A stretch of DNA of 64,000 bases from Massilia rubra (GTDB taxonomy: Bacteria > Pseudomonadota > Gammaproteobacteria > Burkholderiales > Burkholderiaceae_D). The translations under genes were made by a program, and so were the position numbers. The stretch spans positions 62,001 to 126,000 of the forward strand of contig NZ_VUYU01000018.1 in assembly GCF_011682065.1 (NCBI RefSeq), in the 5' to 3' direction. Shown here piece after piece: positions 22,765 through 48,865 of the stretch. Position 1 is the stretch's first letter. Each line of letters starts with the position of its first letter. The notes beneath the pieces were generated by a model. The model saw nothing but the letters and a program-made list of their open reading frames with translations, did not search any database and was not told where the DNA came from.

Positions 22765-22811
22765 ACTGTCCGCCAGAGCGAGCGGACAGTGCTCCGGACA
22801 GTGCGGACAGC
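22765..22811 (+). promoter_or_regulatory. upstream activator block for the TldD/TldE cluster
   Basis: The block reads ACTGTCCG, 20 bases, TCCGGACAG, T, GCGGACAGC. It also holds a perfect 9-bp dyad (ACTGTCCGC 22765-22773, GCGGACAGT 22782-22790), and GTCCGCCGGAC follows at 22812-22822. It matches 48819-48865 in content and internal spacing. Relative to the sigma-54 promoter it covers about -117 to -71, where enhancer-binding proteins usually sit. Confidence 0.8.
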
Positions 22812-22855
22812 GTCCGCCGGACACTCGCGGAATCGCGAATCAAGCACTTAGGAAA

Positions 22856-22870
22856 TGGCATAAGTTTTGC
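22856..22870 (+). promoter_or_regulatory. sigma-54 (-24/-12) promoter of the TldD/TldE-MoxR cluster
   Basis: TGGCATAAGTTTTGC has the invariant GG and GC separated by exactly 10 bases and the TTGC of the -12 element. Predicted transcription start is near 22882. It directs transcription toward tldD at 23018. Confidence 0.8.
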
Positions 22871-23017
22871 GTATTCTTTTCGCCATTTTGCTGGTAAGGT
22901 TCCTGTTGATTTTTTGGTTCAGGCCAGCGATCGGCATGGCCCGGGTGAGCAGAAAAACAAAGAGCGCTCGCGCAGTGCGGCGGGACGCTCCCTTCGTGGT
23001 GATTGTCAGGAGATACT

Positions 23018-24655
23018 ATGGAACGACGTGCTTTTCTCAATATCAGCGGGCTCGCACTGGGCACGATGCTGGTGCCGGTGTTCGGCAACGCCATCGCCGC
23101 TGAAGAATTACTCAATCCCCTTGCAGCAAAGTTCAAGAAGACCCTGGCCGACACGGCCCTCAGCGCCGCCACCGGCGCCGGCGCCAGCTACTGCGACGTG
23201 CGCATCGGCCGCTACCTGAACCAGTTCATCACCACGCGCGACCTGAACGTCGAAAGCGTGACCAATACCGAATCGGCAGGCGTCGGCGTGCGGGTCATCT
23301 GCAACGGCGCCTACGGCTTTGCCGCCACTTCCGACATGTCGCCCGACGCGGTGGCCGGCGCCGCGCGCCAGGCGGTCGCCATCGCCAAGGCCAACGCCAA
23401 ACTCCAATCCGAACCGGTGCGCCTTGCGAGCGTCAAGGGCGTGGGCGAAGTGGCCTGGGCCACCCCGATCAAGAAGGACTGGCGCACGGTCCCCATCAAG
23501 GAAAAAGCCGAGCTGCTGATCGCCGCCAACAAGGCCGGCATGGACGGCGGCGCGAGTTTCATGCAGTCGCTGATGTTCCAGGTGAACCAGCAAAAATACT
23601 TCGCCTCCACCGACGGCTCCTACATCGACCAGGACGTGCACCGCATGTGGATGCCGGTGTTCGCCACCGCCGTCGACAAGGCCAGCAACAAGTTCCGCTC
23701 GCGCCAGGGCTTGTCCACGCCGGTCGGCATGGGCTACGAATACCTCGATGCGCGTTCCGAGGACAAGATCAAGGCCGCCGGGGGCGTGTGCACCCTGTAC
23801 AAGAATTCCTACGACCTGATTGAAGACGCGCGCGCCTGCGGGCGCCAGGCCAAGGAAAAGCTGACCGCCAAGTCGGTCGCGCCGGGCAAATACGACCTGG
23901 TGCTCTCGCCCGAGCACCTGTGGCTGACGATCCACGAATCGGTGGGCCACCCGACCGAACTCGATCGGGTGCTGGGTTACGAGGCCAATTTCGCCGGTAC
24001 CAGCTTCGCCACGCTCGACAAGTGGGAAACCAGGAAATTCAAGTACGGCTCCGAGCGCGTGAACATCGTCGCCGACAAGACCGCGCCAGGCTCGCTGGGC
24101 GCGGTCGGCTACGACGACGAAGGCGTGCCGGGCAAGCGCTGGGACATCATCAAGGACGGCATCCTGGTCAACTACCAGGCCACGCGCGACCAGGCCCACA
24201 TCATCGGCGAAAAAGAATCGCACGGCTGCTCGTACGCCGACAGCTGGAGCAGCGTGCAGTTCCAGCGCATGCCCAACATCTCGCTGCAAGCCGGCAAAGC
24301 CAAGCTCACGCCGGACCAGATGGTCAAGGATGTCAAGAAGGGCATCTACATCGTCGGCGCGGGTTCGTTCTCGATCGACCAGCAGCGCTACAACTTCCAG
24401 TTCGGCGGCCAGCTGTTCTACGAAATCAACAACGGCAAGATCGGTGCGCCACTGGAGGACGTGGCCTACCAGTCGAACACCCAGGAATTCTGGAACGCCT
24501 GCGGCGCCATCTGCGACGAGAGCGACTGGCGCATGGGCGGCTCCTTTTTCGACGGCAAAGGCCAGCCGAGCCAGGTCAGCACGGTGTCGCACGGCTCGAG
24601 CACGGCGCGCTTCAATGGCATCAACGTCATCAACACCGCACGCAAGATCGGCTAA
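23018..24655 (+). CDS. tldD: TldD-like metalloprotease with Tat signal (copy 1)
   Basis: ATG 23018 (AGGAG upstream) starts a 545-residue TldD/PmbA-family protein. The N-terminus MERRAFLN plus a hydrophobic stretch and AIAAEE is a twin-arginine signal, which ordinary TldD lacks. The metalloprotease motif HESVGH is at 306-311. TldD forms a heterodimer with TldE and cleaves unstructured peptides; it is known for maturing microcin B17 and degrading CcdA. The C-terminal SFFDGKGQP (D512) appears to sit where typical TldD has its zinc-binding Cys. It is the first gene of a ten-gene cluster with a sigma-54 promoter. The second copy at 26210 is colinear along its whole length. Confidence 0.92.
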   Translation: MERRAFLNISGLALGTMLVPVFGNAIAAEELLNPLAAKFKKTLADTALSAATGAGASYCDVRIGRYLNQFITTRDLNVESVTNTESAGVGVRVICNGAYGFAATSDMSPDAVAGAARQAVAIAKANAKLQSEPVRLASVKGVGEVAWATPIKKDWRTVPIKEKAELLIAANKAGMDGGASFMQSLMFQVNQQKYFASTDGSYIDQDVHRMWMPVFATAVDKASNKFRSRQGLSTPVGMGYEYLDARSEDKIKAAGGVCTLYKNSYDLIEDARACGRQAKEKLTAKSVAPGKYDLVLSPEHLWLTIHESVGHPTELDRVLGYEANFAGTSFATLDKWETRKFKYGSERVNIVADKTAPGSLGAVGYDDEGVPGKRWDIIKDGILVNYQATRDQAHIIGEKESHGCSYADSWSSVQFQRMPNISLQAGKAKLTPDQMVKDVKKGIYIVGAGSFSIDQQRYNFQFGGQLFYEINNGKIGAPLEDVAYQSNTQEFWNACGAICDESDWRMGGSFFDGKGQPSQVSTVSHGSSTARFNGINVINTARKIG

Positions 24656-24670
24656 GCCAGGGGACCGCAC

Positions 24671-26008
24671 ATGAAAATGTTGACTCAAGAAGAAAGCAAG
24701 CGTATCGCCGAGCGTGTGATGGCTTTGTCCAAGGCCGACGAATGCACCGTCCGCGTCTCGGGCGGGCGCACCGGTAACATCCGCTACGCGCGCAATAACG
24801 TCTCCACGGCCGGCTTGGTGGACAACGCCGAGCTGGTGGTGCAGGTCGCCTTCGGCAAGCGCCAGGGCACCGCCAGTATCAACGAATTCGACGACAAGTC
24901 GCTCGAAAAAGCCGTGCGCCGCGCCGAGGACCTGGCGCGCCTGGCGCCGGAAAACCCGGAGTTCATGCCGGCCGTCGGCAAGCAGGCGTTCAAGGCGTCC
25001 GAGACATTCAGCCGCGCCAGCGCCGCCATCGACCCGGAGTTTCGCGCACAGACGGCGGCCTACAGCATCGAGGCGAGCCGCAAGAACAAGCTGGTATGCG
25101 CGGGCTTTTTCACCGACAGCCATGCGTTCCAGACCATCGTCAATTCGAACGGCGTGTTCGGCCACCAGGAAGAAACCAACGTCGACTTCACCTGCACCGT
25201 GCGCACCGAAGACGGGCGCGGGTCGGGTTGGGTAAAACGCTCGGCCACCGACGTGGCGCGCTTCGATGCGCGCGAAGCGTCCGACGTGGCGATCGAAAAG
25301 GCCCTGCGCTCGGTCGACGCCAGGGCGCTCGAGCCGGGCCGCTACACGGTGATTTTGGAACCTGCCGCCACGTCGGACCTGATCGGCTTCATGCTCGGTG
25401 GATTCGACGCGCGCCAGGCCGACGAGGGCCGCAGCTTTTTGTCGAAGAAGGGCGGCGGTACGCGCCTGGGCGACAAGCTGTTCGACGCGCAGGTCAATAT
25501 CTGGTCCGACCCGTGGGACAAGGACGTGCCGGTACTGCCATGGGATGTGAACACCATGCTGGCGCGCGAGCGCATGAACCTGATCAAGGACGGCAAGGTG
25601 TCGGCGCTCGACTATTCGCTGTTCTGGGCCAAGAAGAAAGGCGTGCGCGCCATTGGCGCGCCGGGGAATATGATCATGGGCGGGACCGACAAATCGACGG
25701 CGGAACTGATCGCCAGTACCAAGAAGGGCGTGCTGGTCACGCGCACCTGGTACATCCGCGAGGTGGACCCGCAGTCGGTACTGCTGACCGGCCTGACGCG
25801 CGACGGTACCTTCTATATCGAGAACGGCAAGATCAAGCATCCGATCAAGAACTTCCGGTTTAACGAAAGCCCGGTGACGATGTTGAACAATATCGAGGCG
25901 ATCGGCAAGCCGCAGGTGATCGCGGGCGACGAGGTGCCGTATTCGATGCTCATTCCGCCGATGAAGGTCAGGGATTTTAACTTTACGTCTTTGTCGGACG
26001 CGGTGTAA
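24671..26008 (+). CDS. tldE: TldE/PmbA-like partner subunit (copy 1)
   Basis: A 445-residue member of the TldE (PmbA) side of the family. It has the family fold but no HExxxH motif, as expected for the non-catalytic subunit that completes the TldD active-site cavity. It starts 15 bases after tldD and must be co-transcribed. There is no signal peptide (MKMLTQEESKRIAERV is soluble and charged), in contrast to its Tat-bearing partner. Export as a folded complex with TldD is therefore possible. A near-duplicate follows at 27862. Confidence 0.9.
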   Translation: MKMLTQEESKRIAERVMALSKADECTVRVSGGRTGNIRYARNNVSTAGLVDNAELVVQVAFGKRQGTASINEFDDKSLEKAVRRAEDLARLAPENPEFMPAVGKQAFKASETFSRASAAIDPEFRAQTAAYSIEASRKNKLVCAGFFTDSHAFQTIVNSNGVFGHQEETNVDFTCTVRTEDGRGSGWVKRSATDVARFDAREASDVAIEKALRSVDARALEPGRYTVILEPAATSDLIGFMLGGFDARQADEGRSFLSKKGGGTRLGDKLFDAQVNIWSDPWDKDVPVLPWDVNTMLARERMNLIKDGKVSALDYSLFWAKKKGVRAIGAPGNMIMGGTDKSTAELIASTKKGVLVTRTWYIREVDPQSVLLTGLTRDGTFYIENGKIKHPIKNFRFNESPVTMLNNIEAIGKPQVIAGDEVPYSMLIPPMKVRDFNFTSLSDAV

Positions 26009-26209: not shown

Positions 26210-27847
26210 GTGGAACGACGTACCTTCCTCAAGATCAGCAGCGGCGCCGCAGGCGCCATTCTGGTCCCGGTCTTCGGCAACGCCATCGCGGCCGAAGAAT
26301 TAATGAATCCGGTCGCCATCGCCTTCAAGAAGTCGCTGGCCGACGCCGCCATGAACGCCGCCACCAAGGCCGGCGCCACCTACTGCGACGTGCGCATCGG
26401 CCGCTACCTGAACCAGTTCATCACCACGCGCGACCTGAACGTGGAAAACATCGTCAACACCGAGTCGTCCGGCGTGGGCGTGCGCGTGATCGCCAACGGC
26501 GCCTACGGCTTCGCTTCGACCAACGACATGTCGCCGGACAGCATCGCCGCCGCCGCGCGCCAGGCCGTAGCCATCGCCCGCGCCAACAGCAAGCTGCAAA
26601 GCGAGCCGCTGCAAATGGCGCCGGTCAAGGGCGTCGGCGAAGTGGCATGGGCCACGCCATTCACCCGCGACTGGCGCACGGTCCCCATCAAGGACAAGGC
26701 CGAGATGCTCATCGCCGCCAACAAGGCCGGCCTGGACGCGGGCGCCAGCTTCATGACCTCGACCCTGTTCCAGGTCAACCAGCAAAAGTACTTCGCCTCC
26801 ACCGACGGCTCCTACATCGACCAGGACATCCATCGCCTGTGGGCGCCTTTGACTGCGACCGCCGTCGATAAGACCAGCAACAAATTCCGCACCCGCGACG
26901 GCCTGGCCTCGCCGGCCGGCATGGGCTACGAGTACTTCGACGCCCGCCCGGCCGACAAGATCAAGGCCGCTGGCGGCGTCGCCACGCTCTACACCAAGTC
27001 CTACGACATGGTGGAAGATGCGCGCGCCGCCGGCCGCCAGGCGCGCGAAAAGCTGGGCGCCAAAACCGTCGAACCGGGCAAGTACGACCTGGTGCTCTCG
27101 CCCGAACACTTGTTCCTGACCATTCACGAATCGGTCGGCCACCCGACGGAGCTGGACCGGGTGCTGGGTTACGAGGCCAATTACGCCGGCACCAGCTTCG
27201 CCACGCTCGATAAATGGAAGACCAGGCAATTCAAGTTCGGCGCCGACAGGGTTAACTTCATCGCCGACAAAAACGAACCCGGTTCTCTCGGCGCGGTCGG
27301 CTACGACGACGAAGGCGTGCCCGCCAAGCGCTGGGACATCATCAAGAACGGGGTGCTGGTGAACTACCAGGCCACGCGCGACCAGGCCCACATCATCGGT
27401 GAAAAAGAATCGCACGGCTGTTCGTACGCCGACAGCTGGAACAGCGTGCAATTCCAGCGCATGCCGAACGTGTCGCTACAAGCCGGCCAGGAGCGCCTCA
27501 CGCCCGACGAGATGGTCAAGGACGTCAAGAAGGGCATCTACATCCTCGGACGCGGCTCTTACTCGATCGACCAGCAGCGCTACAACTTCCAGTTCGGCGG
27601 CCAGTTGTACTTCGAGATCAAGAACGGCAAGATCACCGGTCCCCTGGAAGACGTGGCCTACCAGTCCAACACCCAGGAGTTCTGGAACGCGTGCAGCGCC
27701 ATTTGCGACCAGCGCGACTGGCGCATGGGTGGCTCGTTCTTCGATGGAAAAGGGCAGCCCAGCCAGGTCAGCGCGGTGTCGCACGGATCGAGCACTACGC
27801 GTTTTAACGGCATCAACGTCATCAACACCGCTCGCAAGATCGGCTAA
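26210..27847 (+). CDS. tldD: TldD-like metalloprotease with Tat signal (copy 2)
   Basis: It starts at GTG 26210 with AGGAG six bases upstream. The 545 residues align end to end with copy 1 without gaps at the landmarks: HESVGH at 306-311 and D512 in SFFDGKGQP. Its N-terminus MERRTFLKIS is an even better twin-arginine motif (RRxFLK), followed by a hydrophobic segment and AIAAEE. Copy 2 differs from copy 1 at many scattered positions, so the duplication is not recent. The 200-base gap before it holds a REP-like pair. Both copies keep the catalytic motif, so both are probably active. Confidence 0.92.
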   Translation: MERRTFLKISSGAAGAILVPVFGNAIAAEELMNPVAIAFKKSLADAAMNAATKAGATYCDVRIGRYLNQFITTRDLNVENIVNTESSGVGVRVIANGAYGFASTNDMSPDSIAAAARQAVAIARANSKLQSEPLQMAPVKGVGEVAWATPFTRDWRTVPIKDKAEMLIAANKAGLDAGASFMTSTLFQVNQQKYFASTDGSYIDQDIHRLWAPLTATAVDKTSNKFRTRDGLASPAGMGYEYFDARPADKIKAAGGVATLYTKSYDMVEDARAAGRQAREKLGAKTVEPGKYDLVLSPEHLFLTIHESVGHPTELDRVLGYEANYAGTSFATLDKWKTRQFKFGADRVNFIADKNEPGSLGAVGYDDEGVPAKRWDIIKNGVLVNYQATRDQAHIIGEKESHGCSYADSWNSVQFQRMPNVSLQAGQERLTPDEMVKDVKKGIYILGRGSYSIDQQRYNFQFGGQLYFEIKNGKITGPLEDVAYQSNTQEFWNACSAICDQRDWRMGGSFFDGKGQPSQVSAVSHGSSTTRFNGINVINTARKIG

Positions 27848-27861
27848 GGAGAAAGCGCAGC

Positions 27862-29199
27862 ATGAAACAGTTGAACCAGGAAGAAGCAAAACGCATGTGC
27901 GAGCGCGTGCTCGGGTTTTCCAAGGCCGACGAATGCCGCGTGGCGATCAACGGCACCCGCACCGGCAATATCCGCTACGCGCAAAACAGCGTGTCGACCG
28001 CGGGCCTGAACGAAGACATGCAGATGACGGTGAGCGTGGCCTTCGGCAAGCGCCAGGGAACCGCCTCGATCAATGAGTTCGACGATAAGTCGCTCGAAAA
28101 AGCCGTGCGCCGCGCCGAAGACGTGGCCCGCCTGGCGCCTGAAAACCCCGAATTCATCGCCGCCATCGGCAAGCAGGAATACAAGGCGTCGAACGCGTTT
28201 GCGCGCGAGACTGCCGCCATCGATCCGGAATTTCGCGCCGATGTCGCCTCGCACAGCATTCTGGCGGGGCGCAAGAACAAGCTGGTGACGGCCGGTTTCT
28301 TTGTCGATAACACCGGTTTCGAAACCATCGCCAATTCGAATGGCGTGTTCGGCCACCACGAATTCACCAACGTCAGCTTCACTTGCACCGCGCGCACCGA
28401 AGATGGCCGCGGCTCCGGCTGGGTGACCCGTTCGGCCAACGACGTGCGCAATTTCGACGCGCGCGAAGCGTCCGCCGTGGCGATCGAAAAGGCGCTGCGT
28501 TCGGTCGACGCCAGGGCGCTGGAACCGGGCCGCTACACGGTGATCCTGGAGCCGGCCGCCACATCGGACCTGGTCGGGCGCATGTTCGGCGCGTTCGACG
28601 CGCGCCGCGCCGACGAGGGCCGCAGCTTCCTGTCGAAAAAAGGCGGCGGCAACCGCCTCGGCGAAAAACTCTTCGACGAGCAGGTCAACGTCTGGGCCGA
28701 TCCATGGAACAAGGATGTTCCGGTGCGCCCATGGGACACCGAATCGATGCTGCCGCGCGAACGCACCGACATCATCAAGAATGGCAAGATCGTCTCGCTC
28801 GACTACTCGCTGTTCTGGGCCAACAAGCAAAAGATGAAGGCGCGCGGCCGTCACGGCAATATGATCATGGCGGGCGGGTCCAAGTCGCTCGACGAGATGA
28901 TCGCCTCGACCAAGAAGGGCATCGTCGTCACCCGCACCTGGTACATCCGCGACGTCGATCCGCAATCGCTGCTGCTCACGGGGCTCACGCGCGACGGCAC
29001 CTTCTACGTCGAAAACGGCAAGATCAAGCATCCGGTCAAGAACTTCCGCTTTAACGAAAGCCCGGTCTCGATGCTCAATAATCTCGATGAACTGGGCAAG
29101 CCGCAGATTCTCGGCGGCGATGGCATGAACTTCCAGATGATGATCCCGCCGATGAAGATCCGCGACTTCAACTTCACGTCGCTGTCGGACGCGGTGTAA
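27862..29199 (+). CDS. tldE: TldE/PmbA-like partner subunit (copy 2)
   Basis: A second 445-residue TldE-like protein, colinear with copy 1 (for example the shared AFGKRQGTASINEFDDKSLE, and a C-terminus ending FNFTSLSDAV in both). It lacks HExxxH and any export signal. AAGGAG lies upstream at normal spacing, 14 bases after the tldD copy 2 stop. The arrangement tldD-tldE-tldD-tldE suggests duplication of a two-gene unit, with two dedicated heterodimers or mixed complexes. Confidence 0.9.
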   Translation: MKQLNQEEAKRMCERVLGFSKADECRVAINGTRTGNIRYAQNSVSTAGLNEDMQMTVSVAFGKRQGTASINEFDDKSLEKAVRRAEDVARLAPENPEFIAAIGKQEYKASNAFARETAAIDPEFRADVASHSILAGRKNKLVTAGFFVDNTGFETIANSNGVFGHHEFTNVSFTCTARTEDGRGSGWVTRSANDVRNFDAREASAVAIEKALRSVDARALEPGRYTVILEPAATSDLVGRMFGAFDARRADEGRSFLSKKGGGNRLGEKLFDEQVNVWADPWNKDVPVRPWDTESMLPRERTDIIKNGKIVSLDYSLFWANKQKMKARGRHGNMIMAGGSKSLDEMIASTKKGIVVTRTWYIRDVDPQSLLLTGLTRDGTFYVENGKIKHPVKNFRFNESPVSMLNNLDELGKPQILGGDGMNFQMMIPPMKIRDFNFTSLSDAV

Positions 29200-29213: not shown

Positions 29214-29834
29214 ATGCGCAGCTACGACTTCTACTTCACGCGCCTGATGTACGAGTCGGGCGACTGGGACGTGGATATCCGCATGCCCAGCAACGTGCTC
29301 AATTCGCTGGTGGAGTACACCACCTTGCGCGTCGATCCGGTCGAGCGGGTGATTGCGCTGTCCGACGCCAAGATGCTGGAGGCCCCCTTTTGCTACCTGG
29401 CCGGGCACAAGCTGGTGCAGTTCACGCCGGCCGAGCGCAAGAACTTCGAGCGCTACGTGCGTGGCGGCGGCTTCGTGTTCGTCGACGACTGCAATCACGA
29501 CATCGACGGCCTGTTCGCCAAGTCCTTCGAGGCCGAACTGGCGCGCATCTTCGGCCCGAAAGCGCTGAAGAAAATCCCCAACAACCACCCGATCTATTCG
29601 AGCTTCTTCCAGTTCGACGGCCCGCCCAACACCGGCAATGAGCTCAATGGCTGGGGCGACGACCTGGTACACGACTACCTCAAGGCGATCGACATCAACG
29701 GGCGCGTGCGCGTGCTGTATTCGAACAAGGACTATGGCTGCGAGTGGGATTACGACTTCCGCAACAAACGCTGGCTGGTGGTCGACAACACCCGCTTTGC
29801 GGTCAATATTATTCAGTATGCTTTGGGAGCGTGA
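29214..29834 (+). CDS. DUF4159 domain protein
   Basis: A 206-residue protein with the DUF4159 pattern: a Rossmann-like, glutamine-amidotransferase-related fold with FVFVDDCNHD near the centre and a YGCEWDYDFRNKRW stretch near the end. In many bacteria DUF4159 proteins are encoded beside MoxR, DUF58 and BatA-like genes, as here. No catalytic function is established. It starts 14 bases after tldE copy 2 and is followed almost without gap by moxR. No signal peptide or membrane segment is visible. Confidence 0.8.
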   Translation: MRSYDFYFTRLMYESGDWDVDIRMPSNVLNSLVEYTTLRVDPVERVIALSDAKMLEAPFCYLAGHKLVQFTPAERKNFERYVRGGGFVFVDDCNHDIDGLFAKSFEAELARIFGPKALKKIPNNHPIYSSFFQFDGPPNTGNELNGWGDDLVHDYLKAIDINGRVRVLYSNKDYGCEWDYDFRNKRWLVVDNTRFAVNIIQYALGA

Positions 29835-29836
29835 CA

Positions 29837-30835
<999 letters not shown>

Positions 30836-30842
30836 CCATCGC

Positions 30843-31730
30843 ATGCTGTCGACGTCCGCGCTGCTCGCGCACACCAATGACCTGAACCTGATCATCCGCC
30901 ATGTGCTGGCGGGGCTCGGTCACGGCATCCATGCGGGGCGCGAGCGCGGCGCCGGGGTCGAATTTTCCGAATACCGCGCCTACACGCCGGGCGACGAATG
31001 GCGCCGCATCGACTGGAAGCTGCTGGCGCGCGCCGACCGTTACTACGTGCGCGAAGCGGAGCGCGACAGCCATGTGGCGGTCTGGCTCTGGTTGGATGCC
31101 ACCGCATCGATGGCCGAACCGAGCCGCAGCGGTGTATCGGGACTGGATAAACTCTGGTACGCGCGCACCGTGCTGGCCTGCATCGCCGCCATCGCCCAGC
31201 GCCAGGGCGACGCCTTTGGGCTGGTCATCTGCGGCGGGGAGCGCGTGCAGTTCACGCCCGCCGCGCGCGGTCCGCGCCAGATGCAGCGCGTGCTGGCGCA
31301 ATTGCAGCGCATCGAAGCCGGCGGCGCGCTGCCCGATAGCGAGACCCTGCGCGCCAGCATGCCGTTCGTGCGTTCGCCCGGCCTGGTGTTCGCCGCCAGC
31401 GATTTCCTGGACTGGCCGTCAAGCCAGGCCGAAGCCCTGCTGCGCCTGCGCCGCATGCGCCACGACGTGCGCCTTCTGTGCCTGCAAACGCGCGCCGAGT
31501 GCGACGCCAGCTTTGCGCTCGACACCATCTGGCGCGATCCCGAGAACGCCGACGGCGTGTTCCGCTTCGCTCCCGATACGGTCGGCATCTATCGCAAGAA
31601 CCGCGACGAACACGTCGAGCGCATGCTGGCGCAATGCCGCCATAACGACCTGCCGCTGCTGGCCGCCTGCATCGAAGAGCCGCTGCCCGCCGTGCTGCGT
31701 ACCTGGCTGCGCCGGGGCGCACGCGCATGA
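30843..31730 (+). CDS. DUF58 domain protein (VWA-related MoxR partner)
   Basis: ATG 30843 gives 295 residues with the DUF58 hallmark EFSEYRAYTPGDEWRRIDWK near the N-terminus, followed by a VWA-like fold with a partial MIDAS-type DATASM motif. DUF58 proteins are almost always encoded beside MoxR and are thought to be its partner or target. Unlike many relatives it lacks N-terminal membrane helices. It begins seven bases after moxR and its stop overlaps the next start (ATGA). Confidence 0.88.
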   Translation: MLSTSALLAHTNDLNLIIRHVLAGLGHGIHAGRERGAGVEFSEYRAYTPGDEWRRIDWKLLARADRYYVREAERDSHVAVWLWLDATASMAEPSRSGVSGLDKLWYARTVLACIAAIAQRQGDAFGLVICGGERVQFTPAARGPRQMQRVLAQLQRIEAGGALPDSETLRASMPFVRSPGLVFAASDFLDWPSSQAEALLRLRRMRHDVRLLCLQTRAECDASFALDTIWRDPENADGVFRFAPDTVGIYRKNRDEHVERMLAQCRHNDLPLLAACIEEPLPAVLRTWLRRGARA

Positions 31731-32710
31731 ATACCTTGTGGTGGCTCGGACTGGCCCTGTTGGCGCTGCCGATGTTGTGGCATCGCCAGCGGCGCCAGCG
31801 CATCCGCCAGGAGCCGCTGGCCACCGCGCGCTTCCTGCCGCGCACCGATCCGCAGCAACTGCGCGTGTGGCGCTGGACCGAGCGCCTGCTGCTGCTCGCA
31901 CGCTGCCTGCTGATCATCGCCGTACTTGCCTGGCTGGCCGACCTGGTACTGCCGTGGCGGCGCGACGCGGTGCTCATTGCGGCCGGTACGGACAGCGACT
32001 GGGCCGAGCGCCAGATCAAGCAGGCCGGCTTTTACGACGCCAGCTGGATCGCGGTGCCCGGCAGCGATCCGCTGGCCTGGCTGGCGCGCCACGACCGCGA
32101 ATGGCGCTCCGATTCGCGCCTGCTGGTGCTCGGTAACGTGCCGATGCCGGCCGCGCCGCCACGCTCGCGCCACCAGATCGAGGTGCGCAGCAAGGCGCCG
32201 GCGTTCGCGCAGACCGAACAACGCGTGGTCATCATCAGCAAGCGCGCGGCGCAGTGGCGCGCCATGTTCACCGCGCTCGATGGGCCGCGCCGCTACAAAG
32301 TCGATGAGGCGCCGCAAGGCATTGCCGAACTGGTAATCTGGGATATGCCGCAAGCGCCGCCCGCAAGCCTGCGCGCGCCGCTCTGGTGGGCTGGCGACAC
32401 GACCTCGTTCCCGGAACTGGAAAAGGCGGCGCAGGTCGACGGCATTCGCTACGCCGGCAGCGCGCGCGGTCGCGTCTGGGCCTCCGGCGCATGGCCGCCC
32501 GCCGGGCCGGACGCGGCGCGCCGCCTGTTCGAAACCTGGCAGGAACTGCACTACGCGCCGCTGCCCTACACGATGTCGCCGCAAGTCATCGCCGCCACGG
32601 CGACGGCCACGCCAGCACAGTCCAGCGGCGCCTTGCGCTATCTGCTCACGCTCGTGCTGCTCGGCCTTTTTGCGACGGAACGGATACTGGCCCATGCAAG
32701 CCGACGCTGA
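31727..32710 (+). CDS. BatA-like membrane protein
   Basis: The 327-residue protein opens with the BatA N-terminal pattern: a first helix (MNTLWWLGLALLALPMLWHR), a basic cytoplasmic loop, and a second helix near 58-76. A periplasmic or cytoplasmic domain of about 210 residues follows, with a last helix near residue 305. No intact VWA MIDAS motif is visible, so only the membrane anchor part resembles BatA. It overlaps the DUF58 gene by four bases and the next gene by 17 bases, so translation is probably coupled. Confidence 0.75.
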   Translation: MNTLWWLGLALLALPMLWHRQRRQRIRQEPLATARFLPRTDPQQLRVWRWTERLLLLARCLLIIAVLAWLADLVLPWRRDAVLIAAGTDSDWAERQIKQAGFYDASWIAVPGSDPLAWLARHDREWRSDSRLLVLGNVPMPAAPPRSRHQIEVRSKAPAFAQTEQRVVIISKRAAQWRAMFTALDGPRRYKVDEAPQGIAELVIWDMPQAPPASLRAPLWWAGDTTSFPELEKAAQVDGIRYAGSARGRVWASGAWPPAGPDAARRLFETWQELHYAPLPYTMSPQVIAATATATPAQSSGALRYLLTLVLLGLFATERILAHASRR

Positions 32711-34649
32711 CATTCTCGGCCAGTTGCAGTTTGCCGCCACGCGCCGGCGCGCGCCGCTGTGGATCGCGGCGATCCTGCCGTGGGTGCTGCTGCTCTCGGT
32801 CCCAGGCATCGTGGTGTGGAGCGCCTGGGCGGCATGGGATTGCCGGCGCCTGCGCGCGCGCGTGCAGCGCGACTGGACCGGCTGGATCGACGCCACCGTG
32901 CCCGCGCTGGAAGACAGCACCGCGCTGCTGGCCGGCGCCACCAGCGCCATCGGCCAGCTGCAGCGCCGCCGCCTGCTGGCGCGCCTGGCCACCACGCTTA
33001 CCGACGACGTGCTGGCGGCCATCGCCAGGGAACGCGTGCGGTTCGATGCGCGCTGGGTCGCTTTAAGCGTGTGCGCGGCGCTGGCCTTGTTCGCGTGGCG
33101 CCAGGTGCGCGATGCACCGCCCACACCGCACGAAGTCAAAGCCCTGATTGCGAAGCAGACCAGCGAGATTACCGTGCACGTGACGCCGCCCAAATACACC
33201 GGCGTCGCCCGGTCCGAGGGCGCACCGCGTGAGCTGCAGGTGCCCGAGCATAGCGTCGTCGAATGGTGCCTGCGGGCGCCGCAGCCGGTCGATACGCCGA
33301 TTGAGCTGAGCGACGGCCAGTCGCTCAAGATCGGCCGTGAATGCGCGCGCTGGAGTGCGACCGAGTCGGTGTTCTGGCGCTGGCGCGGCGCGCGCTACAA
33401 GCTGCGCGTGATTCCCGACCAGGCGCCCGAAGTCACCTTGTCCGCACCGCGCGAGATGATTCACACGCTGGCGCCCGACGCCGCCAGCGCCACCATCACG
33501 CTGGCGGTGCATGACGATTACCAGGTGCGGCGCGCCACCTTGCACCTGACACTGGCGCGCGGCAGCGGCGAGAATATCCGCTTCAGCGACCGCGAACTGC
33601 CGCTGCCCGAATCAAGCAACCCGCGCACGCGTAACTGGCACAAGCAATGGACGCTGGCCGAATTGGGCATGGAGCCCGGCGACGAACTGTATTTTTTTGT
33701 GCGCGCGACCGATAATGCCGAACGGGCGCACACCACCGTCTCGCCCACCTACACCCTGCGCCTGCCAGGGCCGGTGGAAGAAACCGACGACTCGTCGGCC
33801 CAGCCGATGCTGGTCAAGCCCGAGAACCTGCGCAGCCAGCGCCAGATCATCATCGACACCGAGCAGTTGCTGGCCGACCTGAAGGCCACGCCCGGCATGA
33901 ACCCGGCTACCGTGCGCGCGCGCAGCGAGTCCATCGCCGACGACCAGGCCCAGTTGCGGCGCCGCTACGGCCAGTTCCTCGGTGAGGAGTCGACCCTGTT
34001 CGGCGGCGAAGAGCATCACGACGATCATGAAAAACACGACGTGGTGGCCGAATTCGGCCACATGCACGACCAGGCTGAAAGCGCGACCCTGTTCGACGAG
34101 TCGACCAAGAAGATCCTGCGGCGCGCCCTGGGTGCGATGTGGGACGCCGAAAAAGCCCTGCGCGCGATCGTGCCGAAAACCGCGCTGGCGCCCGAACACA
34201 AGGCGCTTGAAGCGATCAAGCAGTTGCAGCAGGCCGACCGCATCTACCTGCACAAGACCGCTTTTGTGCCGCCGCCGCTCAAGGAAGAGATCCGCATGAC
34301 CGGCGACGTTGTCGGCGCCAAAAGCTACCGGCGCGAACAGGCCACGGCGGCCGTGCCGATTCCCGACGAGGTGCGGCGCCTGATCGAAGCGCTCGATGGC
34401 GATGGCGCCTTGCCCGCCCTGTGGAGCCGTGGCGCGCACGAGTGGATTCGCGAGCGCATCGCCAGCGACGAGCAGCGCCTCGAAGCGCAGCGCGCTGTGC
34501 AGGATGTGGCGGACGGCTGCGTCGCGTGCCGCCCGGTGCTGCGCGCCTGGCTGCGCGGCGCCATCACCCGGGCCCCGGTCCTGTTACAGGCCAAAGCCAC
34601 CCCGCAAACCCCATTCACGCGCGCGCTGCGCAAGGAAGCCCCACGATGA
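32694..34649 (+). CDS. DUF4175-like membrane protein
   Basis: ATG 32694 gives 651 residues: two N-terminal membrane helices (about 25-46 and 123-135), an extracytoplasmic beta-rich region (about 150-375), then a long helical region (380-640) with a His/Asp/Glu-rich stretch EEHHDDHEKHD near 442-452 that could bind metal. DUF4175 proteins are known only from MoxR/BatA-type clusters. The gene overlaps its neighbours at both ends (17 bases upstream, four bases downstream). Confidence 0.7.
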   Translation: MQADADILGQLQFAATRRRAPLWIAAILPWVLLLSVPGIVVWSAWAAWDCRRLRARVQRDWTGWIDATVPALEDSTALLAGATSAIGQLQRRRLLARLATTLTDDVLAAIARERVRFDARWVALSVCAALALFAWRQVRDAPPTPHEVKALIAKQTSEITVHVTPPKYTGVARSEGAPRELQVPEHSVVEWCLRAPQPVDTPIELSDGQSLKIGRECARWSATESVFWRWRGARYKLRVIPDQAPEVTLSAPREMIHTLAPDAASATITLAVHDDYQVRRATLHLTLARGSGENIRFSDRELPLPESSNPRTRNWHKQWTLAELGMEPGDELYFFVRATDNAERAHTTVSPTYTLRLPGPVEETDDSSAQPMLVKPENLRSQRQIIIDTEQLLADLKATPGMNPATVRARSESIADDQAQLRRRYGQFLGEESTLFGGEEHHDDHEKHDVVAEFGHMHDQAESATLFDESTKKILRRALGAMWDAEKALRAIVPKTALAPEHKALEAIKQLQQADRIYLHKTAFVPPPLKEEIRMTGDVVGAKSYRREQATAAVPIPDEVRRLIEALDGDGALPALWSRGAHEWIRERIASDEQRLEAQRAVQDVADGCVACRPVLRAWLRGAITRAPVLLQAKATPQTPFTRALRKEAPR

Positions 34650-41435: not shown

Positions 41436-42779
41436 CTAGGCCGGCAGGATCAGGGTCACCACCAGGCCGCCGCCGTCGCGGTTGCCGAGTGTGATGCGCC
41501 CGCCGTGCGCTTCGGCGATTTCGCGCGCCAGCGCCAGTCCCAGGCCGGTGCCACTGCGCTTGGTGGAGTAGAACGGCACCAGCGCATTGGTCAGCACCGC
41601 GTCGTTCATGCCCTGGCCGCGGTCCATCACCTCGATGCGCAGCGTGCCATGCGCCTGGCGCACCTGCAGCGTCACATCGGCCGCTGGCGAACCCGATTCG
41701 TGGGCGTTCTTGAGCAGGTTGAGCAAGGCTTGCTCCATCTGGGCCGGGTCGATGCGGGCCGCTTCGACCGGCAGCGCGCCGCTCACCGTCAGCGCTACCT
41801 GCGAGGCCAGCCGGCTGACAAAAGCCGGCCATGGGCATGCTTCGATGCGCGGCGAGGGCAGCTTGGCGAAGCGCGCGTAGCCGAGGATGAAGCTCTCCAG
41901 GTGGCGCGTACGTTCTTCGATGGTTTCCAGGATCTGCGGCAGGCGCTCGGTCTGGCCGCGCCGCACCAGTTCCGCGCCCGAGTGGGCCAGCGAAGCGAGG
42001 GGAGCGAGCGAATTATTCAGTTCGTGGCTGATGACGCGAATGACCTTTTTCCAGGTCTGCACTTCCTGGCGCCGCAGTTCGTGGGTCAGCTGGCGCAGCA
42101 GCAGCAGTTCGTGCTTGCGGCCATTGAGGCTGAAGCTGCGGCGCGCCAGGTGGTACACCTCTTCTTCTTCGCCGTCACCGGCTGTGAACAAGCCGTCCCC
42201 GCCACGCGCCAGCGCGTCCACCAGCGCCGGCAAGGCCTGGCTGAGAATCGCGGACAGGCGCAGTCCTTCGAGTTTGCGGCCGTCGCCCAGCATCTGGCGC
42301 GCCGACAGGTTGGCGTAGACGATCGCCCCCGCGCCGTCGCCGGGCGCGTCGGCCACCAGCAGCATGGCCACCGGCGTGTTCTGGACCATGGTGTCGAGCA
42401 GCAGTTCGCGCTGCACCAGCGCCAGGCGCTGTTCGCGCAGCACGTTGCCGAGCGCGTTGTGGGCCGCCACCAGGTCGGCCAGTTCGTCGTTGCGCGGCCA
42501 GTGCAGGCTGAAGGAAAAGTCGCCATCCTTGTAGCTGGCGACGGTGCCTTCGAGCGCGCGAAACATCGACAGGATCGGCCGCAGCTGGGCGCGCACGGCG
42601 ATCAGCGCAAGCGGCGCCACGCACACCAGCGACAGGGCCAGCACCACCAGCACACGCCCCGGCAGCAGGTGGTCGAGCCCGAGCGCGATCAGGATGCCCA
42701 GCGCAAGCAGGGCGCCCACCAGGGCCGAGCAGCGCGTGATGAGCGAAAAACGCAGGGGCAAGCGCAGCGACTGGCGCAT
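41436..42779 (-). CDS. NtrY-like sensor histidine kinase
   Basis: A 447-residue kinase with two N-terminal membrane helices (about 18-35 and 42-62) separated by only about six residues, so it has no periplasmic sensor domain. A HAMP-like stretch and a PAS-like domain (about 125-215) follow, then the phospho-acceptor H252 in VISHELNNSLAP and an ATPase domain with LLNLLKNAHES, DRGQGM and GTGLGLALAREI. It starts three bases after the response regulator, forming a two-component pair with it. Confidence 0.9.
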   Translation of the reverse strand: MRQSLRLPLRFSLITRCSALVGALLALGILIALGLDHLLPGRVLVVLALSLVCVAPLALIAVRAQLRPILSMFRALEGTVASYKDGDFSFSLHWPRNDELADLVAAHNALGNVLREQRLALVQRELLLDTMVQNTPVAMLLVADAPGDGAGAIVYANLSARQMLGDGRKLEGLRLSAILSQALPALVDALARGGDGLFTAGDGEEEEVYHLARRSFSLNGRKHELLLLRQLTHELRRQEVQTWKKVIRVISHELNNSLAPLASLAHSGAELVRRGQTERLPQILETIEERTRHLESFILGYARFAKLPSPRIEACPWPAFVSRLASQVALTVSGALPVEAARIDPAQMEQALLNLLKNAHESGSPAADVTLQVRQAHGTLRIEVMDRGQGMNDAVLTNALVPFYSTKRSGTGLGLALAREIAEAHGGRITLGNRDGGGLVVTLILPA

Positions 42780-42782
42780 CGG

Positions 42783-44111
42783 CTAGCGCGCGATCCCGAG
42801 GCGTTCCATGCGGCGGTACAGCGCCTGGCGCGACAGGCCAAGATCGGCCGCCGCCTGGGCCACCACGCCGTTGGTGCGCGCCATGGCCTGCACGATGGCG
42901 TCGCGGTCCGGTTCCACCTCGACGCCGGGGGCCAGCGTCACCGGCAGCCCCAGGTCGGTCGCCTTGATGATGTCGCCGGCGGCCAGCAGGCTGGCGCGCG
43001 CCATCACGTTTTTGAGTTCGCGCACATTGCCGGGCCAGGCGTGCGCCAGCAGCGCGGCCTGGGCGCAGTGGTGCAGGCTCTTGCCGCGCGCCAGGAAACT
43101 GCTTGCCAACGGCAGAATGTCGGCCGGGCGCGCCGCCAGCGCCGGCAGGCGCAGTTCGATCACGTTCAGGCGGTAGAACAGGTCTTCGCGGAAGGTGCCG
43201 GCGCGGATCATCGCACCCAGGTTGGCGTTGGTGGCGCTGATCACGCGTACCTTGACCTGGCGTTCGCGGTTCGATCCAAGGCGCTCGAAGCGCCCGGTCT
43301 CGAGCACGCGCAGGAGTTTCATCTGGCCGGCCAGCGGCAGGTTGCCGATTTCATCCAAAAACAGGGTGCCGCCGTCGGCCGCTTCGAACTTGCCTTCGCG
43401 CGCGCGCGAGGCGCCGGTGTAGGCGCCCGCTTCGGCGCCGAACAGTTCGGCCTCGATCAGTTCGGCCGGCAGCGCGCCGCAATTGAGCACGACGAACGGG
43501 CCGCCGGCCACCAGCGAATTGGCCTGGATGATCTCGGCGATGCGTTCCTTGCCGGTGCCGTTGGGACCACTGATCAGCACCGGCACGTCGGCCCGCGCCA
43601 CCTGGCAGGCCAGGTGCAACACGCGTTCGGTGGCGGCGTCCTGCCACACCATGCCGCGCAGGTCGAAGCCCTGTTCCAGGTCGCGCCGCACGCGCCGCTC
43701 CTGCTGCACGCGCTGGCGCAGGGAGCGGTTGGCCTGTCCCAGTTCGATCAGGTTGGTCACCGTGGCGATCAGGCGGTTGTCGTTCCAGGGCTTGGACAAA
43801 TAGTCGGCCGCGCCCGACTTGACCAGGTCGACCGCCGCGTCCAGGTGGGTCCAGGCGGTCAAGAGGATCACCGGCAGGTCGGGATGGCGCTGGCGGATGG
43901 CGCGAAACAGCGCCCTGCCTTCCTCGCCTGAGGTGGTGTCGGCCGAAAAATTCATGTCCTGGATGACCAGGTCCACGCGGGTGGCGTCCAGGATGGCCAG
44001 GCCTTCTTCGGGCGAGGTGGCGCGCAGCGCACCGATGTCGTGCAGCGAAAACAGGACATCGAGTGCGATGGCGACGGCGGCGTTGTCGTCGATGATCAAT
44101 ACAGTAGGCAT
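42783..44111 (-). CDS. NtrC-family sigma-54 activator (response regulator)
   Basis: Starts at ATG 44111 (MPTVLIIDD); another ATG at 44123 is possible. The 442 residues are a receiver domain with phospho-acceptor D52, an AAA+ domain with Walker A GPNGTGKE (182-189), a GAYTGA loop (229-234) in place of the usual GAFTGA, Walker B LFLDE (D253, E254), and a C-terminal Fis-type helix-turn-helix (about 403-440). It lies in the same operon as the ABC exporter and its partner kinase. The exporter promoter is of the sigma-54 type with an upstream half-site block, so autoregulation is very likely. Confidence 0.93.
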   Translation of the reverse strand: MPTVLIIDDNAAVAIALDVLFSLHDIGALRATSPEEGLAILDATRVDLVIQDMNFSADTTSGEEGRALFRAIRQRHPDLPVILLTAWTHLDAAVDLVKSGAADYLSKPWNDNRLIATVTNLIELGQANRSLRQRVQQERRVRRDLEQGFDLRGMVWQDAATERVLHLACQVARADVPVLISGPNGTGKERIAEIIQANSLVAGGPFVVLNCGALPAELIEAELFGAEAGAYTGASRAREGKFEAADGGTLFLDEIGNLPLAGQMKLLRVLETGRFERLGSNRERQVKVRVISATNANLGAMIRAGTFREDLFYRLNVIELRLPALAARPADILPLASSFLARGKSLHHCAQAALLAHAWPGNVRELKNVMARASLLAAGDIIKATDLGLPVTLAPGVEVEPDRDAIVQAMARTNGVVAQAAADLGLSRQALYRRMERLGIAR

Positions 44112-44133
44112 GGCCGCTAGCATACCATCGCCG

Positions 44134-45372
44134 TCAGGCACTGCGGGTGGCCGTGGCCGGCGAAATCGAGGCGGCGCGCCAGGCCGGCCCGTACACGGCG
44201 GCGACGCCGAGCACCCAGAACACGCCCGCGCCCACCACCAGGTAGGCCAGCGGCAGCCTTTCCATCTCCAGTTTGCTGACCAGCAGCTGGTTGAGCGCGA
44301 TCGACCCGAGCACGCCGCACGCCACGCCAACGCTGGTGATCATGAAGTTCTCGGTGATGAAGTAGCGCAGGATATCGACCCGGCGCGCCCCCAGTGCGCG
44401 TCGTACCCCGATCTGCTTGCGGCGCTGCGTGACCCACAGGCTGGCCATGCCGACGATGCCGCTGGCGGTAATGAGCAGCAGCAGCACGCTGACCGCGATC
44501 AGCATCCACGACAGCGCCATGTCGGCCCGATAGCGTTCCTTGCGGTCGTCAGTCACGCGCTTCATGGTGACGATCGCGCGGCCCTGATTAGTGGCGCGCA
44601 TCGCGGCTTCGGCTTCTTTCATGACGCGCTCGAACTGCCCGGCGTCGGCCCGTACCGTGTACATGGTGCTGGAGAAGGTCTTACGCATCGGGACAATCAG
44701 CGCATAGCCGCCGCGCGCGGCCACTTCGGCGCTCTGGGTCTGCAGCGTCGCGATGACGCCGACCACGGTCGCGCTATTGGCTTCCTCGCCGATGCCGAAG
44801 TAAAGCGTCTTGCCGACCGCGTTGCCGCTCCCTGGCCACAGTTTGTCGGCCAGGGCCCTGGTAATGAGTACCGCTTTGGGGAACAGGTCGTCGGGCGCGG
44901 TCTTGCCATCGATGTCGATGACATCTTCCGGCTTCAGGTCGCGCCCTTGCGCCAGCTCCAGAGCCCAGGTCTTGACCAGCGAATCGCTTGAGTAGTACAT
45001 GGCGGCGGGCGGAATGTCGTCGCCTGCGCTGCGCGATGGCGCCACGCTGGACGACCAGCCCGATTGCGACATCGGCGCCTGGTTGACGAAAGCGGCCGAG
45101 AGCACCCCGCCGATGGCGCGCAGGGCCTGCGTCTCGAGCTGCTGGCGCGCCAGCTGCTCCTGGTGGCTGCCTTCGACCAGGTGGCGCACGCGCATGTGGA
45201 AGACGCTGCTCTCGTCGGCGATGCCGCTGGCACGCGCGGCCACCGCCTGGCGCACGCTGACGATGTGCAGCGCATTGGTGAGGATCGCCAGGCTGATCGC
45301 CACTTGCAGCGCCACCAGGATGGCGCCGGTCTTGCTGCGCAGGAGCGCGGAAAGGATGGGACGGATTTCCAT
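44134..45372 (-). CDS. FtsX/MacB-type ABC transporter permease (second)
   Basis: ATG 45372 gives 412 residues: one helix near 18-38, a large periplasmic MacB_PCD-like domain, and three C-terminal helices (near 290-310, 340-360 and 375-395) with RRKQIGVRRALGARR between them, the FtsX signature. A longer open frame running to 46134 is an artefact in another frame of its neighbour. It starts 17 bases after the first permease. With that protein it probably makes a heterodimeric MacB-like channel. Confidence 0.88.
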   Translation of the reverse strand: MEIRPILSALLRSKTGAILVALQVAISLAILTNALHIVSVRQAVAARASGIADESSVFHMRVRHLVEGSHQEQLARQQLETQALRAIGGVLSAAFVNQAPMSQSGWSSSVAPSRSAGDDIPPAAMYYSSDSLVKTWALELAQGRDLKPEDVIDIDGKTAPDDLFPKAVLITRALADKLWPGSGNAVGKTLYFGIGEEANSATVVGVIATLQTQSAEVAARGGYALIVPMRKTFSSTMYTVRADAGQFERVMKEAEAAMRATNQGRAIVTMKRVTDDRKERYRADMALSWMLIAVSVLLLLITASGIVGMASLWVTQRRKQIGVRRALGARRVDILRYFITENFMITSVGVACGVLGSIALNQLLVSKLEMERLPLAYLVVGAGVFWVLGVAAVYGPAWRAASISPATATRSA

Positions 45373-45389
45373 GTGTAGTCTTTCGAATG

Positions 45390-46706
45390 TTACTGCGATT
45401 TGAGTTGGATCGCGGGCGTGACCTGGCAGGCGCGCCAGGTCGGCAGCAGGCCGGCCAGCATGGCCGCGGCGAGCGACATCAGGAACGTCAGGCCAAGCAT
45501 TTGCCAGTCCATGTGGGCGGCGACCTTGAGCTCCTTCGATTGCATGCCGATCAGGGCCAGCGCGCCGAAGGCCAGCACCAGTCCGAGCAGGCCGCCGGCC
45601 AGGCCGATGACCGCGGTCTCGGTCAGGAACTGGCGGAAGATATCCCTGCGCGAGGCGCCCAGCGCGCGCCGGATGCCGACCTCGGAGGCGCGTACCGAGA
45701 ATTTGGCCAGCAGCAGGCCGACCGTGTTGACCAGGCAAAGCAGCAGGAAGCCGAACGCCAGCCAGGCCGACAGGCGGCTGTCGTTGCCGACCACCTTGCG
45801 AAATTCGAGCCATTGCATGACATCGAAGAGGCGGTTCGGCTGCTTGCGCTTGAGGCGTCCCAGCTTGCGCTGTTCGGCCGCGTAGTTGTCCAGGTAATCC
45901 TGCAGTTCGGCGCGTCCGGCCGACGATTTGGTCTCGAAGAAGACCTGCAGCCAGGTGCATTCCGAATCGAGGAAGCCTTGCCATCCCGGTTCGGCGCGTC
46001 CGCGGCAACTGAAGCTGCCCTCCGGGTTCGTCTCGTGGCGCAGCGCGGTGGCGAAGGGGATGATGATCTCTTCCTCCACGCCGAAGCTGCCGCCGCCGCC
46101 AATCAATTTGTAAAACTTCGGCACCGGCCGCCACGGCTTGAGCACGCCGACCACCTGGAATTGCGCCTCCAGCAGGCGGATGCGCTTGCCGACCGGGTCG
46201 ACCGCGCCGAACAGCTTTTCGGCCAGCGCCTGGCTCAGTACCACCACATCGGCGCCGGCGCGTTCGTCCGCTTCGCTCCAGGGCTGGCCGTGCAGGAAGG
46301 GCACTTCCATCATCGGAAAAAAGTCGCGCGTCAGGGCCATGCCCTTGACCGCCATGACCGGCAAGTCCTTGCGCTCGGGCTCGAGCGGCGCGGACACGCC
46401 GTACAGCACCGCGCGCCGCTCTCCCTGGCCGCTCTTGAGGAAATTGATGGCGTCGGTGTAGGTCGACTGCGGGTCGCTGCGGTCCTCGGCCTGCGGGTTG
46501 AAGCCGTTGAGCGGGCCGTTGTCGATTTTCGGGACGAACAGGCGCTCGCTTTTTTGCGGAATCGGATTGCTCGACATGACGTGCAAGATCGTCAGCGTGG
46601 CGACGCTGGCGGCCACGCCGATGGCCAGGGTCAGCACCATCAGCGCGGTCAGGGCCGGATTGCGGCGCAGGCTGCGCACGCCCAGCATGAAGTAATACGA
46701 AAACAT
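45390..46706 (-). CDS. FtsX/MacB-type ABC transporter permease (first)
   Basis: The 438-residue protein has an N-terminal helix (about 18-40), a periplasmic MacB_PCD domain and three C-terminal helices, with SEVGIRRALGASRRDIF as the FtsX signature. Unlike MacB itself the ATPase is a separate protein, encoded 9 bases upstream. Pumps of this kind move peptides, lipoproteins or amphipathic compounds from the periplasmic side using mechanical force. Confidence 0.9.
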   Translation of the reverse strand: MFSYYFMLGVRSLRRNPALTALMVLTLAIGVAASVATLTILHVMSSNPIPQKSERLFVPKIDNGPLNGFNPQAEDRSDPQSTYTDAINFLKSGQGERRAVLYGVSAPLEPERKDLPVMAVKGMALTRDFFPMMEVPFLHGQPWSEADERAGADVVVLSQALAEKLFGAVDPVGKRIRLLEAQFQVVGVLKPWRPVPKFYKLIGGGGSFGVEEEIIIPFATALRHETNPEGSFSCRGRAEPGWQGFLDSECTWLQVFFETKSSAGRAELQDYLDNYAAEQRKLGRLKRKQPNRLFDVMQWLEFRKVVGNDSRLSAWLAFGFLLLCLVNTVGLLLAKFSVRASEVGIRRALGASRRDIFRQFLTETAVIGLAGGLLGLVLAFGALALIGMQSKELKVAAHMDWQMLGLTFLMSLAAAMLAGLLPTWRACQVTPAIQLKSQ

Positions 46707-48758: not shown

Positions 48759-48774
48759 TGCAGGAAACGTGCCA
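48759..48774 (-). promoter_or_regulatory. sigma-54 (-24/-12) promoter of the exporter/two-component operon
   Basis: On the minus strand TGGCACGTTTCCTGCA has the TGGCACG -24 element and a TGC -12 element, with the invariant GG and GC exactly 10 bases apart. Predicted start is near 48748. Confidence 0.85.
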
Positions 48775-48818
48775 CCACTTAAGTCATTGATTGATATGAA
48801 TTTCTTTTTTAGCGCAAG

Positions 48819-48865
48819 GCTGTCCGCGCTGTCCGGACGGCGTGCCTGGACGGCGCCCGGACAGT
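48819..48865 (-). promoter_or_regulatory. upstream activator block for the exporter operon
   Basis: On the minus strand: ACTGTCCG, 20 bases, TCCGGACAG, C, GCGGACAGC. It ends 46 bases before the GG of the sigma-54 promoter. Both the motif spacing and the 46-base distance equal those of the block at 22765-22811, and the final 19 bases differ at one position. Confidence 0.85.

Follow-up and report, generated by a model that had tools for sequence, protein, structure and literature searches.

A sigma-54 promoter architecture shared by a tldD/tldE operon and a MacB-like exporter operon in Massilia rubra, and its candidate activator

The stretch of DNA analyzed here, 64,000 nucleotides from Massilia rubra (the window), carries two operons preceded by promoters of similar layout, one encoding TldD and TldE/PmbA-like proteins and the other an exporter together with a kinase and a response regulator. 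This resemblance raises the question of whether the two gene clusters answer to one regulatory switch and, if so, which protein would operate it. An earlier note on this DNA had described the operons as distant from each other; they lie within one 26-kb neighbourhood, where they are convergent.

Layout of the two promoters and their operons

The tld promoter and operon comprise the following features, in which distances are given to the TGG of the sigma-54 box:

22767..22772, minus strand: inverted half-site TGTCCG, 89 bp before TGG
22783..22823, plus strand: four direct half-sites CGGACA, starting at 22783, 22795, 22804 and 22818 (73, 61, 52 and 38 bp before TGG)
22838..22850, plus strand: IHF consensus AATCAAGCACTTA, 9/9 specified positions
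22856..22870, plus strand: sigma-54 -24/-12 box TGGCATAAGTTTTGC
22892..22901, plus strand: TGnTAnnGTT element, 36 bp after TGG, one copy in the window counting both strands
23018..24655, plus strand: TldD 1, PmbA/TldD family, Tat-like N terminus (MERRAFLNIS..., by eye)
24671..26008, plus strand: TldE/PmbA-like 1, no signal peptide by eye
26210..27847, plus strand: TldD 2, Tat-like N terminus by eye
27862..29199, plus strand: TldE/PmbA-like 2
29214..34649, plus strand: genes for DUF4159, MoxR AAA, DUF58, BatA-like and DUF4175 proteins, starts approximate

The exporter promoter and operon are read on the other strand:

48821..48863, minus strand: half-sites, TGTCCG 89 bp and CGGACA 61 and 52 bp before TGG
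48780..48792, minus strand: IHF consensus AATCAATGACTTA, 9/9
48760..48774, minus strand: sigma-54 box TGGCACGTTTCCTGC
47455..48723, minus strand: HlyD-type periplasmic adaptor, ATG at 48723, above the NCBIfam RND_mfp cut-off
46716..47432, minus strand: ABC ATPase, MacB/LolD/DarD-like
45390..46706, minus strand: MacB/FtsX permease 1, sub-cut-off match to the ADOP permease model (first half)
44134..45393, minus strand: FtsX permease 2, sub-cut-off match to the ADOP permease model (second half)
42783..44123, minus strand: NtrC-type response regulator with receiver, sigma-54 AAA domain with GAYTGA loop, and HTH_8
41436..42779, minus strand: histidine kinase, two membrane helices joined by some 7 residues as judged by eye

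Direct reading confirms the coordinates given for the two stretches and yields an identical layout for both promoters, with ACTGTCCG at position 1, TCCGGACAG at 29 and GCGGACAGC at 39 from the first A, followed by TGGCA at 92 and TGC at 104; re-counting 29, 39 and 92 in both stretches showed the equal spacing claimed in the earlier note to be exact. Each box has GG and GC 10 bp apart in a TGGCAY-N5-TTGCW context, with agreement at 7/8 further positions. Between enhancer and -24 element, both promoters carry WATCARNNNNTTR at 9/9 positions, starting 18 bp before TGG, which is the IHF consensus as quoted in PMC7962754. Neither this site nor the regulator in the exporter operon nor the TGnTAnnGTT element formed part of the earlier description. 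The sequence between half-site block and box had been called unrelated, a description which suits positions 48-73 (4/26 identical) but not positions 74-86 (AATCAAGCACTTA in one promoter, AATCAATGACTTA in the other), where 11/13 are identical and the full IHF consensus is found. With a full IHF site lying between half-sites and box, each promoter therefore has the standard enhancer - IHF - sigma-54 arrangement. Sigma-54 is encoded in the genome by one rpoN gene. As for the products of the tld operon, a Tat-like start on both TldD proteins and not on TldE 1, as judged by eye, would be compatible with a folded pair being exported by means of a single signal.

Occurrence in the genome, the family and beyond

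The half-site block TCCGGACAGNGCGGACAG has two perfect matches in the 7,572,464-base genome, both of them in these promoters, so that the block did not turn out to be widespread without sigma-54 promoters, an outcome which would have counted against the earlier proposal. When one or two mismatches are allowed, 7 more places are found, a number near the 4 of the reversed control. A single half-site with a weak box is not specific, since CGGACA followed by 35-64 bases and TGGC-N8-TGC occurs at 34 genomic places as compared to 18 for the reversed pattern. With two half-sites (CGGACA-N3..6-CGGACA-N35..64-TGGCA-N7-TGC), 38 rows were obtained in 26/145 genomes of the family, the reversed pattern giving 0 matches in the same 145 genomes. 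These rows collapse to 32 distinct promoters, of which 18 precede the exporter, 11 precede tldD (one of them, in G108, counted by its sequence only) and 3 lie elsewhere. A match in G113 (contig C82) lies inside an open frame of 435 codons and is probably due to chance. A gene of G089 (L126:1300-1600, minus strand), which by its look we take to encode an M61-type peptidase, likewise has this architecture in front of it; in G069 (L127:1000-1600, minus), a small ORF is preceded by the same half-sites together with a sigma-54 box and a near-IHF site, and an ABC ATPase gene lies further on.

A stricter pattern including the IHF site matched 4/399 genomes at the order level, all from the window's family, to which 13 of the 399 belong, and its reversed control matched none of the 399. 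At the class level 3/369 genomes matched, that of Massilia rubra among them; the matches in G786 and G869 lie inside open frames of 394 and 299 codons and are probably chance. The strict pattern skips real sites with a weak IHF core, such as the exporter promoters of G018 and G063, both sampled, and the order-level zeros hold for that pattern only.

Exporter promoters of the family were retrieved by protein homology and not by motif. HlyD was detected at E <= 1e-30 in 39/145 genomes, of which 38 were used, G009 being dropped at a contig start and two weak HlyD paralogues (G089:C13 and G045:C1; 24-27%) being left out. A sigma-54 box and an IHF site are present in 38/38, with IHF scores of 9/9 in 30, 8/9 in 6 and 7/9 in 2; in shuffled segments, 9/9 is reached in 0.18% of cases. 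The IHF site starts 17-19 bp before TGG in 33/38 and 28-30 bp in 5/38, with none in between, and the difference between the two groups is one helical turn. At least one exact half-site occurs within 170 bp in 38/38, three of which (G104, G063 and G044) have TGTCCG only, and in 29/38 a CGGACA begins 49-53 bp ahead of TGG. Overall, the main clusters of CGGACA are centred around 52 and 61 bp, minor ones around 45, 72 and 79. In 4/38 genomes (G107, G104, G063 and G044; L076-L079), promoter and hlyD are separated by a small ORF which appears by eye to encode a membrane-type protein.

The tld side is far more variable. TldD was found at E <= 1e-50 in 41/145 genomes; the 26 with two close orthologues each were used, and the 15 with matches of 31-36% identity were excluded. 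The TldD of G111 is 97% identical to that of the window. As the tld locus of G108 is cut at a contig end, 25 genomes including that of Massilia rubra remain for the promoter comparison; the G108 promoter, located on another contig, has half-sites, box and downstream element, with no IHF site by eye. The full set (CGGACA at 50-52, IHF 9/9 at -18, and box) occurs in 9/25, Massilia rubra included. Box and half-sites are found in a further 6/25, with an IHF site of only 5-6 of 9 (7 of 9 at -28 in G098) and the nearest half-site at 49 bp in G125, 92 in G144, 67 in G089, 39 in G106, 80 in G139 and 73 in G098. Three of the 25 have a box with no exact half-site (G120, G056 and G126), and in 7/25 the box is eroded or absent (G003, G113, G040, G027, G018, G132 and G079). 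Automatic scoring had assigned boxes to G027 (score 7; AGGCACGCACCTTGCA, 349 bp upstream) and to G040 (score 6; GGGAATACATATTGCT), both of which were counted as having no box or an eroded one on reading and were kept out of the promoter set. The exporter is still present in 5 of these 7 genomes; the only tld genomes lacking it, G027 and G079, are both among the 7, an association of exporter absence with box loss (2/2 vs 5/23) that is not significant (0.07).

The TGnTAnnGTT element is present in 19/25 tld upstream regions. It lies 36 bp after TGG in 14/15 promoters having both box and element (37 in G125) and is retained in four genomes that have no sigma-54 box (G003, G018, G027 and G079). Its resemblance to an extended -10 sequence suggests that it is possibly a second promoter of the housekeeping type, and this element alone may carry tld expression.

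The role of spacing itself has to be stated with care. Equal spacing had been taken in the earlier note as a sign of shared function; the shared sigma-54 architecture and a probable shared function stand, but exact equality is not supported as the conserved feature. Among the nine genomes with the full tld set, the CGGACA of the 50-52 cluster is equidistant in both promoters in two (G000 and G111) and differs by 1 bp between exporter and tld in six; in G045, the sole exporter CGGACA is at 72. Spacing alone was rejected as a conserved trait because distances shift by 1-2 bp and by larger steps. Retention of the genes with loss of the spacing, named beforehand as an argument against the proposal, is seen for part of the tld side, where the half-site lies at 39-92 bp or is lost, but not for most exporters. 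Helical phase, which had also been invoked, is borne out only approximately: elements are spaced in roughly helical-turn steps (IHF at 17-19 or 28-30, half-sites mostly at about 52 and 61). For CGGACA, the period is strongest at 9.0-9.5 bp, which fits these direct half-sites better than 10.5, and for TGTCCG at about 10.5-11 bp; the smaller CGGACA group near 45 bp falls outside the helical pattern. Since the periods differ and the sequences are related, the half-sites can be placed on one face of the helix only approximately.

Across about 85,000 species genomes, a scan yielded at least 119 stretches with the architecture, 80 of which were listed; as the pattern requires half-site and IHF site, it indicates which genes carry the architecture and not how frequently it is conserved. 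By tblastn, 57 of the 80 listed matches immediately precede HlyD and 6 precede TldD, the HlyD match being only 22-24% in two of the 57 (L198 and L223). L166 and L186, where the locus ends early, are also exporter promoters as judged by contig and protein start. An XAC0231-like gene follows in 6 of the 80 (L157, L172, L178, L188, L206 and L216), assigned by NCBIfam match in four and by eye in L172 and L216. Other genes follow in 9 of the 80, which we take to be two FtsX/ADOP-like permeases, a TolC-like gene of Acidobacteria, two hydrolase-like genes, a nifV-like gene, a nifE-like gene and two of unclear kind. The acidobacterial matches (L160, L163 and L211) stand before the ADOP/FtsX-like permeases and the TolC-like gene, which hints that the exporter regulon may extend further still. 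The matches before the nifV-like (L177) and nifE-like (L219) genes were read as NifA-type promoters, an assumption drawn from the sequence together with the likely gene names.

The listed matches show the same exporter preceded by the architecture in Xanthomonadaceae. From their record titles, 29 exporter loci among the listed matches were taken as Lysobacterales (L202 being titled Proteobacteria). CGGACA lies at 49-53 bp in 25/29 of them, a count to be read against the scan pattern, which already requires one at 41-73 bp. Within this Lysobacterales group, HlyD is 39-53% identical to that of the window, with the exception of L153 (63%), and in the four loci that reach the regulator gene its product is 69-72% identical. 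A match to XAC0231 (NCBIfam) was detected in 18/26 Lysobacterales genomes, 7/26 over the cut-off of 140, all 26 having been pre-selected by the scan and four of them through the XAC0231-like gene itself. In 17/18 cases, a box lies 160-174 bp upstream of the gene and is accompanied by an IHF-like site at -17 (6-9 of 9) and by CGGACA at 48-51; the X. nasturtii gene has half-sites and a broken box. By eye, the protein starts with a sequence resembling a signal peptide and contains about 3-4 repeats like IVDLPAVTVRPSAEDLA, which may resemble TonB boxes. The small secreted XAC0231 proteins with tandem repeats of the IVDLPxVTVRPSAEDLA type, whose genes have the promoter architecture of the exporter, are those of the six listed loci named above and of L269-L276 and L278-L287.

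TldD homologues (E <= 1e-80) occur in 16/26 Lysobacterales genomes. Box, IHF site and half-sites together were found in none of the 30 Lysobacterales tldD loci returned, leaving tld unsupported as a target common to both orders. With tld loci lacking the architecture and XAC0231 having it in Lysobacterales, the exporter is the constant target, while tld and XAC0231 are lineage-specific partners. The exporter target is common to the window's family and Xanthomonadaceae; the tld target was seen in the window's family only, and several relatives have partly lost it.

Candidate activator and competing explanations

The exporter operon itself encodes a protein of the kind which such promoters call for. 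Its regulator has a receiver, a sigma-54 AAA domain (Pfam), a GAFTGA-type loop read GAYTGA and a Fis-type HTH, and is thus of the NtrC type. Assignment as an NtrC, PrsR, GlrR or ZraR equivalog was considered and dropped, scores being below the NCBIfam cut-offs (25 of 82 families listed); it is for this reason that an NtrC or PrsR identity is rejected. Of the regulator C-termini compared, 8/10 retain the stretch SRQALYRRM(E/D)RxG of the recognition helix, these being from Massilia, Undibacterium and Pseudoxanthomonas; the regulator of a gammaproteobacterial MAG has the close variant SRQALYRRMEHYG, and that of L198 differs more. The kinase may be one of the intramembrane-sensing kinases, in which a very short loop joins two helices; its loop of about 7 residues is alike by eye in four relatives (L152, L197, L218 and L229). 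A regulator located inside the conserved target operon, with a conserved recognition helix, points to this protein as the binder of the half-sites without proving it, and makes it the candidate activator of both promoters.

From the observed elements, spacing, conservation and gene content, we infer protein binding, activation, a signal and a cargo along the following lines. The exporter-operon kinase would phosphorylate the adjoining NtrC-type response regulator, which would assemble on TGTCCG/CGGACA half-sites some 50-90 bp upstream, mostly on one helix face. IHF, bound between the half-sites and the -24/-12 box, would bend the DNA, and the regulator would then open the sigma-54 polymerase. 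In this manner the regulator would switch on its own exporter operon, constituting positive autoregulation, and in Massilia-type bacteria would also activate the tldD/tldE-MoxR operon with its Tat-exported-looking TldD. Both promoters are thus probably targets of one autoregulated sigma-54/IHF/response-regulator switch, which in Massilia-type bacteria includes tldD/tldE. The same switch at both clusters, together with an exporter copy kept in distant bacteria, indicates that one sensor probably controls both. The promoter pair is real and very probably functional, and would be what shows here of a larger sigma-54 regulon under autoregulation.

The half-sites of these real sigma-54 promoters might be bound by an NtrC-type activator other than the exporter-operon regulator, as the genome has 13 NtrC-type hits at E <= 1e-30, that regulator included. 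This is unlikely: among the 80 listed matches the architecture stands mostly before the exporter operon, with the regulator aboard where the locus is long enough, and the recognition-helix stretch, conserved alongside the half-site, is absent from the 7 other readable NtrC-type C-termini of the genome (5/13 being unreadable). About equally improbable is a switch that works at the exporter only, the tld copy being a decaying relic and tld expression coming from the housekeeping promoter that would lie 36 bp further down. Loss or displacement of half-sites, IHF site or box in 16/25 genomes and the spread of TGnTAnnGTT, which extends to the four genomes devoid of a sigma-54 box, speak for such a relic; however, Massilia rubra and 8 relatives keep the box, an IHF site of 9/9 and half-sites at the exporter geometry, which would be unexpected of one.

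As the half-site blocks are very alike in the Massilia rubra genome, chance similarity, or recent copying of one promoter, has also to be considered. This reading is most improbable and is already contradicted, chance by the zeros of the reversed pattern across the 145 genomes, a recent copy by the low identity of spacer positions 48-73, and both by the occurrence of tld and exporter promoters in relatives. An old duplication of one promoter could still be the origin of the pair. A further proposal, doubtful though conceivable, is that the switch governs a peptide secretion and turnover system with a constant sensor-regulator-exporter core. Its exchangeable partners would be periplasmic TldD/TldE peptidases in Massilia-type bacteria and the secreted tandem-repeat protein XAC0231 in Xanthomonadaceae, and the repeat protein or its fragments would be exporter cargo or signal.

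Significance and relation to known systems

For a sigma-54 regulon seen in two bacterial orders, these results provide a half-site, a rule of spacing and a candidate activator, and they tie three protein groups without an assigned role to one signal, namely the MacB-like exporter, the exported-looking TldD/TldE and the XAC0231 repeat protein. Helical phasing and regulon gain or loss are directly testable through natural variants in which the IHF site is displaced by a helical turn or the tld promoter has decayed to different degrees.

The component parts are of known kinds. A description of their combination, of the half-site motif and its targets, of the tld link or of XAC0231 was not found in the literature searched, outside which most subscription papers lie and which includes the accessible parts of PMC3162934, PMC7280030, PMC6075780, PMC6085468, PMC8657755 and PMC7962754. 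Two reports are neighbouring in subject: COG1136 (antimicrobial-peptide-type ABC transporter ATPases) is enriched among predicted sigma-54 targets in Opitutia (PMC12316311), and a sigma-54 box has been predicted 263 bp before the Xylella HlyD-family gene XF2093, termed an RND pump (PMC3224663).

In comparison to the QseE/QseF (GlrK/GlrR)-glmY system of E. coli, the half-site here is TGTCCG/CGGACA in mixed direct and inverted order, the targets are an exporter operon and peptidases, and the exporter regulator reaches 266.9 bits against a GlrR cut-off of 763. PrsK/PrsR of PEP-CTERM/exosortase systems likewise combine a kinase with an NtrC-type regulator acting with sigma-54, and TIGR02915 is among the best-scoring NCBIfam models; nonetheless, the regulator scores 318.6 bits (PrsR cut-off 502.6) and the kinase 71.8 (PrsK cut-off 300). 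The exporter resembles MacAB and the darobactin exporter DarBCD in its HlyD-type adaptor, MacB-like ATPase and FtsX permeases, and differs from both in having two separate permeases. It falls short of the darobactin models, with 259.8 bits for the ATPase (DarD cut-off 375) and 55.2 for the adaptor (DarC cut-off 450), and no precursor peptide was identified in the window on non-systematic inspection. Bce-type peptide-resistance modules are self-regulating and pair an exporter with its own kinase, which has a very short extracellular loop. The present switch differs from them in its sigma-54/NtrC control, its HlyD adaptor and its Gram-negative setting, with sensing through the transporter being putative, and shares with them an exporter operon that carries its own kinase with a very short loop, as judged by eye.
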